NCBI RefSeq assembly: GCF_947036865.1
Contig: NZ_CAMQSF010000003.1
Location: 62,001-126,000, forward strand
Source: an uncultured Caulobacter sp.
GTDB taxonomy: Bacteria; Pseudomonadota; Alphaproteobacteria; Caulobacterales; Caulobacteraceae
DNA length: 64,000 nt
Direction of reading: 5' to 3'
The notes beneath the pieces were generated by a model that saw nothing but the letters and a program-made list of their open reading frames with translations, was not told where the DNA came from and made no database searches. This document shows, one piece after another, positions 50,850 to 52,414 of the stretch; position 1 is the stretch's first letter; each line of letters opens with the position of its first letter. The translations under genes were made by a program, and so were the position numbers.

Positions 50850-51626
50850 ATGGCCGACGGTGCTCTGCCCATCTCGTCTCTCAAGGGCAAGGTCAGCGAC
50901 GCGGAATGGCAGGCGCGCGTCGACTTGGCGGCTCTTTATCGTCTCGTGGCCCTGCACGGCTGGGACGACATGATCTTCACCCACATCTCGGCCCGGGTGC
51001 CGGGGCCTGAGCATCACTTCCTGATCAACCCATACGGCATGTTCTTCGGGGAGATCACGGCCTCGAGCCTGGTCAAGGTCGACCTTGACGGCAACGTCGT
51101 CGACAAGACGCCGTACTACATCAATCCGGCGGGCTTCACGATCCACTCGGCCATCCACGCCGCGCGCGAGGACGCCCACTACGTCATGCACCTGCACAGC
51201 GACCAGGGCGTGGCGGTGTCCGCGCACAAGGAAGGCCTGCTGCCGCTGACGCAACACGCGCTTATCGTCTTGCCTCAACTCGCCTATCACGACTATGAAG
51301 GCATTGCTCTCAACTTGGACGAGCGAGAACGGCTGGTCGCCGATCTCGGCCCGACCAAGAGGCTGATGATGCTGCGCAACCACGGCACCCTGTCGGTGGG
51401 CGGCACGGCGGCCGAGTGCTGGTTGGGGATGTTCTTCCTGGAGCGAGCGTGCGCGCAGCAGGTGATGGCTCTGTCGATCGGACGCGACAACGTCCTTCTG
51501 GCCCCGGACGCGGCCCAGGACGAAGTGCGCAAGCAGACCGGCATGGGCATGGGCATGATCGGCGGCTTGGCCTGGCCGGGCTGCCTGCGAAAACTGGACC
51601 GCGAGCTGCCCGGCTACGCGGACTAG
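50850..51626 (+). CDS. Class II aldolase/adducin family protein
   Basis: A 258-residue protein. The metal-binding His residues appear as YVMHLHSDQGVAVSA and in LRNHGTLSVGG; FTHISARVPG is the other conserved segment. The subgroup matches adducin-head-like proteins found in alphaproteobacteria, whose substrates are mostly unknown. GGGAGG lies upstream of the ATG. A very strong terminator follows the stop. Confidence 0.88.
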   Translation: MADGALPISSLKGKVSDAEWQARVDLAALYRLVALHGWDDMIFTHISARVPGPEHHFLINPYGMFFGEITASSLVKVDLDGNVVDKTPYYINPAGFTIHSAIHAAREDAHYVMHLHSDQGVAVSAHKEGLLPLTQHALIVLPQLAYHDYEGIALNLDERERLVADLGPTKRLMMLRNHGTLSVGGTAAECWLGMFFLERACAQQVMALSIGRDNVLLAPDAAQDEVRKQTGMGMGMIGGLAWPGCLRKLDRELPGYAD

Positions 51627-51634
51627 GCGCGCCT

Positions 51635-52414
51635 ATCGCCGTTTCGAAAGCCGCCGCGATCCTGGCGATCGCGGCGGCTTTTTCGTGCCTGGGGGCGGGA
51701 GCGGCGTGGGCCGGCGCCTGGGCCATGGCGCCGGGACGGACCCAGGTCATCGCGAAATACGAGGGGACCGCCGCCGACCAGGGCTTTGGGCCGGAGTCGA
51801 CGCTCGCCGACATCGACCATCGCCGCGACGAGAGCCTTTCGGTCTTCGTCGAACACGGCGTAACGCCGCGCCTGACCTTGCAGGCCAAGGCCGGCCTGAC
51901 GCGGGGCAGGGATCGTTGGGCGGACTATTCGGGACGCGGCCTGACGGAGCTGGGCCTGCGCTGGACGGTTCGACGCGACGAGCGCTCGTCGCTGGCCGTG
52001 TACCTGGGCGCTGGCGAGGCCGGCGCCGGCCGCAACGCCGGCTACGCCGCGCCGGGGCAGGGGAGTCTCGATCTCGAGGCGCGGGTGCTTTACGGCCGCG
52101 CCGGCGCGTGGCGCGGTCGCCAGGCCTTCTTCGACCTCGAGGTCGCGCGGCTGAAGCGGCGGGGTCTGGCCGACGAAACGCGGTTCGATGCGACCTTCGG
52201 CCTTCGACCTGGGCGCGACTGGCTGCTGCTGGCCCAGACCTACGCGGGCGAGGCCGATCGCCGTCCGATCCGCTCGCGCTGGCTCAAGTCCGACCTGTCG
52301 GTTGTTCGAACGTTTGGCGACTGGAGCGTCCAGGCCGGCTGGCGCGAGACGCTTTCGGGGCGGGAGACCGCCCGCGATCGCGGCGTCGTGCTGGCGACGT
52401 GGCGCAGGTTCTAG
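51635..52414 (+). CDS. Exported beta-barrel-like protein with unclear start codon
   Basis: The frame encodes a convincing signal peptide (SKAAAILAIAAAF...AWA) and a mature part with alternating beta-strands ending in WRRF, as outer-membrane barrels do: LTLQAKAGLTRGRDRWADYS, LTELGLRWTVRR, FDATFGLRPGRDWLLLAQTY. Yet no ATG, GTG or TTG precedes the signal within this gap; the first ATG is at 51725, after the signal. I draw it from the in-frame ATC at 51635. The signal-coding bases are also the terminator of the upstream gene. It may be a gene with a non-standard start, or one damaged at its start. Confidence 0.55.
   Translation: MAVSKAAAILAIAAAFSCLGAGAAWAGAWAMAPGRTQVIAKYEGTAADQGFGPESTLADIDHRRDESLSVFVEHGVTPRLTLQAKAGLTRGRDRWADYSGRGLTELGLRWTVRRDERSSLAVYLGAGEAGAGRNAGYAAPGQGSLDLEARVLYGRAGAWRGRQAFFDLEVARLKRRGLADETRFDATFGLRPGRDWLLLAQTYAGEADRRPIRSRWLKSDLSVVRTFGDWSVQAGWRETLSGRETARDRGVVLATWRRF
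51647..51683 (+). terminator. Strong terminator after the aldolase-family gene
   Basis: A perfect 15-bp stem (AAAGCCGCCGCGATC / GATCGCGGCGGCTTT) with a CTGGC loop, running directly into a T5 tract, 20 bases after the stop at 51626. It lies within the signal-peptide region of the next frame. Confidence 0.9.

Follow-up and report, generated by a model that had tools for sequence, protein, structure and literature searches.

The gene for a predicted outer-membrane beta-barrel protein in the 64,000-nt stretch of uncultured Caulobacter sp. DNA that we analyzed (hereafter, the window) probably starts at a GTG codon (51449) inside the preceding aldolase gene. The two genes would thus share 178 nt; translation of the barrel would read through a terminator hairpin that is also signal-peptide code, the precursor would be exported and cleaved before GAW, and the hairpin would ration barrel expression. 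This reading of the aldolase/barrel pair draws on comparative sequence data, and the features to which it refers are listed in Table 1. The barrel gene is followed on its 3′ side by an RND adaptor gene and then by an AcrB-type pump gene. The first start codon of the adaptor in the list of open reading frames is a TTG (window 52533), and its reading frame ends at the beginning of the AcrB-type ORF (53675).

Table 1. Features of the aldolase/barrel locus (window coordinates)
Feature	Position	Strand	Description	Basis
Class II aldolase/adducin-family gene	50850..51626	+	258 aa, stop TAG 51624-51626	Pfam Aldolase_II 1.6e-47; NCBIfam PRK07044 3.4e-115
GGAG, Shine-Dalgarno-like, within aldolase gene	51440..51443	+	5 nt ahead of GTG 51449	Sequence
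GTG, most likely start of barrel gene	51449..51451	+	-1 frame of aldolase, 58 codons before CTAG	
Putative out-of-frame same-strand aldolase/barrel overlap, 178 nt	51449..51626	+	Open -1 frame	
CTAG at end of aldolase gene	51623..51626	+	Relatives with TGA: overlapping start TTGA/GTGA/ATGA at same site	
Intrinsic-terminator-like hairpin	51647..51683	+	15 bp, loop 5, then T5	
Signal-peptide hydrophobic core and c-region	51644..51712	+	SKAAAILAIAAAFSCLGAGAAWA; putative cleavage before GAW at 51713	
Putative full barrel ORF	51449..52414	+	321-aa precursor; 88 residues (extension and signal peptide) precede mature part	Open frame
Mature outer-membrane beta-barrel, predicted	51713..52411	+	233 aa, 12 long strands	AlphaFold2, Foldseek

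The interval from the aldolase stop to the signal peptide contains no ATG, GTG, or TTG, and the next ATG (51725) comes after the signal peptide. The first-pass annotation had stated that the frame has none of these codons before the signal-peptide core. This is correct for the interval downstream of the aldolase stop but not for the frame as a whole, which continues without a stop into the aldolase gene on its 5′ side and contains both GTG 51449 and GTG 51416.

The comparison set comprised 99 loci from Caulobacter, Brevundimonas, and their kin, in all of which the barrel occupies the -1 frame relative to the aldolase. Loci that lacked a start at a distance of up to three codons from the aldolase stop were classified as start-less (45 of 99), and the other 54 had an ordinary start. 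When an ordinary start was present, the aldolase TGA was overlapped by TTGA, GTGA, or ATGA, or the start followed it by one to two codons (CTGATG and similar). The aldolase gene of start-less relatives ended in CTAG, GTAG, CTAA, TTAG, or bare CTGA. An ATG or GTG in the -58 or -68 column (57-68 codons upstream) was present in 44 of the 45 start-less loci and in 13 of the 54 ordinary-start loci (Fisher, 4e-15), and the remaining start-less locus (L066) had an ATG at -69. The combination of a Shine-Dalgarno-like motif with an ATG or GTG at -58 was restricted to start-less loci (33/45 vs. 0/54). GGAG was found in 33 of 34 relatives that have an ATG or GTG at -58 and no start at the stop, compared with 10 of the 54 with an ordinary start. 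In start-less Caulobacter, the upstream codon was nearly always at -58 with GGAG 5 nt before it; every start-less Brevundimonas-like member whose barrel lies in the -1 frame had an ATG, either 67 or 57 codons upstream.

When the -1 and +1 frames were examined over the last 150 aldolase codons, -58 was the only column to behave in this way. Among 51 four-fold codon columns, -58 was the outlier in the comparison of TAG/TAA loci with the rest (7e-10; next column, 8.5e-4), and in 12 genomes this column carried the rare alanine codon GCA (3.5% of Ala codons), which creates the ATG. A separate excess was observed at aldolase codon 48 from the end (Gly, approximately 51480), where GGA occurred in 24 of 37 TAG/TAA genomes and in 4 of 29 others; the third-base A excess at this codon goes beyond that of the start column.

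The -1 frame was free of stop codons over the last 56 aldolase codons in all 45 start-less loci and was broken in 17 of the 54 ordinary-start loci, whereas a control stretch was broken in 12/45 and 9/54, respectively. Mapped on the tree, -1-frame stop changes numbered 0 in start-less loci and 14 in the others (control stretch, 10 vs. 9). A simulation of frame openness by codon usage (37 of 37 open, 10.3 expected) was badly calibrated and was not relied on; because control stretches were also too open in the simulation, we rely solely on the difference between ordinary-start and start-less loci. Because the species share ancestry and the tree shows only approximately five changes of start type, formal statistics are limited; a sign test on four independent pairs (three in agreement, none opposed) had too few pairs to reach significance. 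Four-fold sites in the overlap did not evolve more slowly than those elsewhere, and the extension that precedes the signal peptide therefore shows no sign of a function or of sequence selection of its own. The strength of the case for an upstream start lies in the co-occurrence of start codon, Shine-Dalgarno-like motif, and open frame across many species, together with the genus-specific positions. In the light of this comparison, relocation of the barrel start into the aldolase gene is the most likely reading.

The barrel frame was also retained across inserts of approximately 110-180 nt (L020, L021, and L062). In L020 and L021, the enlarged gap (stop-to-mature distance, 200 and 209 nt) is flanked by inverted copies (CATGGCCCGGCTTGTCCGGGCC and GGCCCGGACAAGCCGGGCCATGACGGG) and resembles the insertion of a repeat element, with the barrel frame open; the frame is likewise open in L062 (260 nt). 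This retention, and the -1 position of the barrel in all but a few relatives, would also be expected if a programmed -1 frameshift near the end of the aldolase gene produced an aldolase-signal peptide-barrel fusion. We regard such a fusion as very unlikely: inspection by eye revealed no conserved slippery heptamer at the end of the aldolase gene, the -1 frame is stopped just ahead of the TTG in L011 and L013, and a frameshift gives no reason for the ATG or GTG with GGAG at -58. In a small Caulobacter group (L024, L027, L030, and L068), the barrel lies in the +1 rather than the -1 frame relative to the aldolase. L024 has a TTG at the edge of the hairpin; L027, L030, and L068 have TTC there and no canonical start before the signal-peptide core, and in these three the start may be lost or non-canonical.

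The first-pass annotation had proposed that an ATC or GTT start is used or that a start was lost. Translation from a non-canonical codon between the aldolase stop and the signal-peptide core (ATC 51635, GTT 51641, or a CTG), perhaps by termination-reinitiation, is in our judgment improbable for the window. Initiation at ATC 51635 would yield MAVSKAAAILAIAAAF, a good signal peptide, and the overlapping NTGA starts of relatives show that the gene pair is suited to reinitiation. Start usage in C. crescentus is 74.3% ATG, 14.5% GTG, 10.3% TTG, 0.7% CTG, and 0.25% other near-cognates (PMC4117421), and some probability is therefore left to a start of this kind. However, no near-cognate codon in this interval was kept at any position in relatives, and the retained -58 start, Shine-Dalgarno-like motif, and open frame would go unexplained. 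Coupling through 4-nt overlaps is standard, but reinitiation drops sharply with distance and fails by approximately 20 nt (PMC10666635), which makes reinitiation at a site well past CTAG less likely. A further candidate precedent for reinitiation (PMC4648390) was set aside because it concerns a eukaryotic system. Two other positions were rejected. ATG 51725 lies downstream of the signal peptide and is replaced by GTG, CTG, CTC, or GTC in relatives; starts inside the hairpin (GTG or TTG in L002, L003, L006, L007, and L009) are not kept and would delete the n-region and part of the core. What relatives have instead is a normal start in another place, either TTGA or GTGA on the aldolase stop or, where the ordinary start is absent, an ATG or GTG 57-69 codons upstream, with GGAG before it at -58.

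The hairpin described by the first-pass annotation, with a 15-bp stem and T5 on the 3′ side of the aldolase gene, was confirmed. It begins 20 nt past the aldolase stop and consists of AAAGCCGCCGCGATC-CTGGC-GATCGCGGCGGCTTT (51647-51681), a perfect stem (51647-51661 paired with 51667-51681) closed by a 5-base loop. The T run (51679-51683) adjoins the stem, and the GC-rich stem followed by T residues agrees with the definition of an intrinsic terminator; the computed energy of the hairpin alone was -28.8 kcal/mol. A scan with a consensus terminator model did not list the hairpin at 51647-51683, the likely reason being that its basal A-T pairs are assigned to the stem, which leaves a shorter T tail. 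In the barrel frame, the stem reads KAAAILAIAAAF and the stem with T5 reads SKAAAILAIAAAF. Across the whole hairpin region the frame encodes the segment given in Table 1, followed by GAW, so the claim that the hairpin is read in the next frame as a signal-peptide core also held.

Conservation of the hairpin was assessed in 59 loci with a stop-to-mature distance of 50-150 nt, and the null was obtained by redrawing the synonymous codons of the stop-to-mature region from the usage of each genome. A terminator-like hairpin in the signal-peptide code was present in 45 of the 59 loci vs. 11.2 expected, with per-locus P values of 0.003-0.03 where it was present. Nearly all hairpin-bearing loci were from Caulobacter, and none belonged to the Brevundimonas-like group of the 59-locus set. 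Two-sided changes were observed in 9 of the 15 stem pairs (0 of 500 shuffles were as good), a signal of which part could stem from signal-peptide codon choice and relatedness. The T run derives from TTT, a codon used for only 2 of the 62 Phe residues in the four coding stretches counted.

An alanine-rich signal peptide in a GC-rich genome could give rise to such a hairpin incidentally, and the hairpin would then terminate nothing. GCC-GCC-GCG is complementary to GCG-GCG-GCT, so runs of Ala codons form stems; the synonymous redraws themselves yielded a terminator-like structure in approximately 19% of cases, and the shuffle z-score of the region was only -2.5. We nevertheless consider an incidental origin unlikely given the excess over the redraws, the covarying stem pairs, and the retention of the T run with rare TTT codons; in addition, L021 and L022 have a different hairpin in their longer aldolase-barrel gap instead (as judged by eye). 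From the excess, the covariation, and the rare TTT, it follows that the hairpin has most likely been kept as an RNA structure in addition to its protein-coding role. The suggestion that the same bases serve two purposes is therefore borne out as far as conservation of both the terminator-like hairpin and the signal-peptide code is concerned; the hairpin presumably ends transcripts. Because upstream starts occur in Brevundimonas without the hairpin, relocation of the start needs no hairpin, and the two features are not mechanistically tied.

The features of the signal peptide (K, the core AAAILAIAAAF, and AWA before GAW) agree by eye with those of a Sec signal peptide, and the pattern K/R-AAA-hydrophobic-AxA followed by GAW was kept in relatives (also by eye). 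The core was the strongest hydrophobic stretch among the first 134 residues of the precursor. With a start at GTG 51449, the n-region would be unusually long; the location of the signal peptide, approximately 66 residues from the precursor N terminus, is also atypical and counts against the upstream start.

For the mature protein, AlphaFold2 predicted a 12-strand outer-membrane barrel (pLDDT 88.8, pTM 0.82). The top Foldseek match in the PDB was 4rl8, a COG4313 outer membrane channel (E 2.8e-9; TM 0.79-0.80 by query). The likeness is one of predicted fold, at 13% identity: the mature protein matched no Pfam or NCBIfam family, and searches of PDB sequences, Pfam, and NCBIfam gave no relevant match that would place it in the COG4313 sequence family. 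That the barrel gene is a pseudogene that has lost its start appears extremely unlikely. Barrel frames are disturbed in L027 and L030, but start-less loci have intact, conserved mature frames (approximately 70-80% identity among close relatives, without stops), and the barrel fold is predicted with confidence. A diverged barrel copy (approximately 32-37% identity) was found in another Caulobacter subgroup (L028, L029, and L069-L074) with no aldolase gene detected next to it; in several of these copies, an ATG occurs a short distance ahead of the signal peptide.

Sequence comparison demonstrated the conservation of the hairpin, of the open frame, and of the upstream start codon with its Shine-Dalgarno-like motif, and the following sequence of events is proposed. 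In the lineage of the window, the TTG or GTG start that many relatives have on the stop (NTGA) is absent, the stop there being CTAG. Translation of the barrel would begin at GTG 51449, preceded by GGAG, in the -1 frame within the aldolase gene; the ribosome would cross 178 nt of that gene and its stop codon, and then the hairpin that encodes the signal-peptide core. The N-extended precursor would be exported and cleaved before GAW. Ribosomes translating the aldolase would halt 20 nt before the hairpin, which would be free to form, and most transcripts would end there. Ribosomes in the barrel frame would unfold the hairpin and transcription would continue; by analogy with pil1, the hairpin would ration the barrel protein, whose expression would depend on translation in its own frame.

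The pil1 leader of Streptococcus gallolyticus offers a close precedent from experiment: a leader peptide that stops at least 28 nt before the terminator is associated with mostly low expression, and one that reads through it raises expression (PMC3894217). In translation-controlled attenuators such as the pil1 leader (PMC3894217) and the trp leader, the frame or stop position of the ribosome decides whether a terminator hairpin is covered, as proposed here, and the 20 nt between the aldolase stop and the hairpin fit this geometry. The hairpins of those leaders are tied to a leader peptide, whereas the hairpin of the window is the coding sequence of the signal peptide of the downstream protein itself, and its regulation is proposed by analogy. 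Tentatively, the locus might act as a frame-sorting attenuator, a possibility that we rate somewhat below even: approximately 180 nt would be shared in two frames, the frame of the ribosome would decide whether the terminator in the signal-peptide code is opened, and one hairpin would be the 3′ end of the aldolase mRNA, the code for an export signal, and a translation-dependent gate for the barrel.

The same gene pair has TTGA, GTGA, or ATGA in TGA relatives, as in the NTGA/ATGA stop-start overlaps with termination-reinitiation coupling (PMC10666635); the window differs in having CTAG, no start there, and what appears to be a 178-nt overlap with an independent Shine-Dalgarno-like start. It is accepted that long unidirectional overlaps can arise when a downstream start is lost and one within the upstream gene replaces it (PMC3887535). 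The history that we propose is the same, with disruption of the start followed by use of an in-frame start inside the upstream gene; that model is general, whereas in this gene pair several lineages show the relocation, each time at one of two to three fixed positions. Of 715 co-directional overlaps longer than 60 bp, a survey of 338 genomes judged none to be real, the longest accepted overlap being 56 bp (holD-rimI; PMC2478687), and this result counts against a real overlap of 178 nt. The combination of a long same-strand overlap with a coding terminator is what is new here, each being of a known kind.

When a long same-strand overlap is met in a bacterial genome, it is often put down to an error in start-codon annotation; the comparison across many species points here to a genuine one of approximately 180 nt, set up at different positions in Caulobacter and Brevundimonas where the ordinary start is gone. 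Annotation pipelines may miss the barrel gene or assign it a wrong start. The locus is a conserved example of a terminator embedded in signal-peptide code, and its relatives show, in replicate, a series of states (start at NTGA, a codon later, or 57-69 codons upstream) in which the origin of overlaps can be studied.
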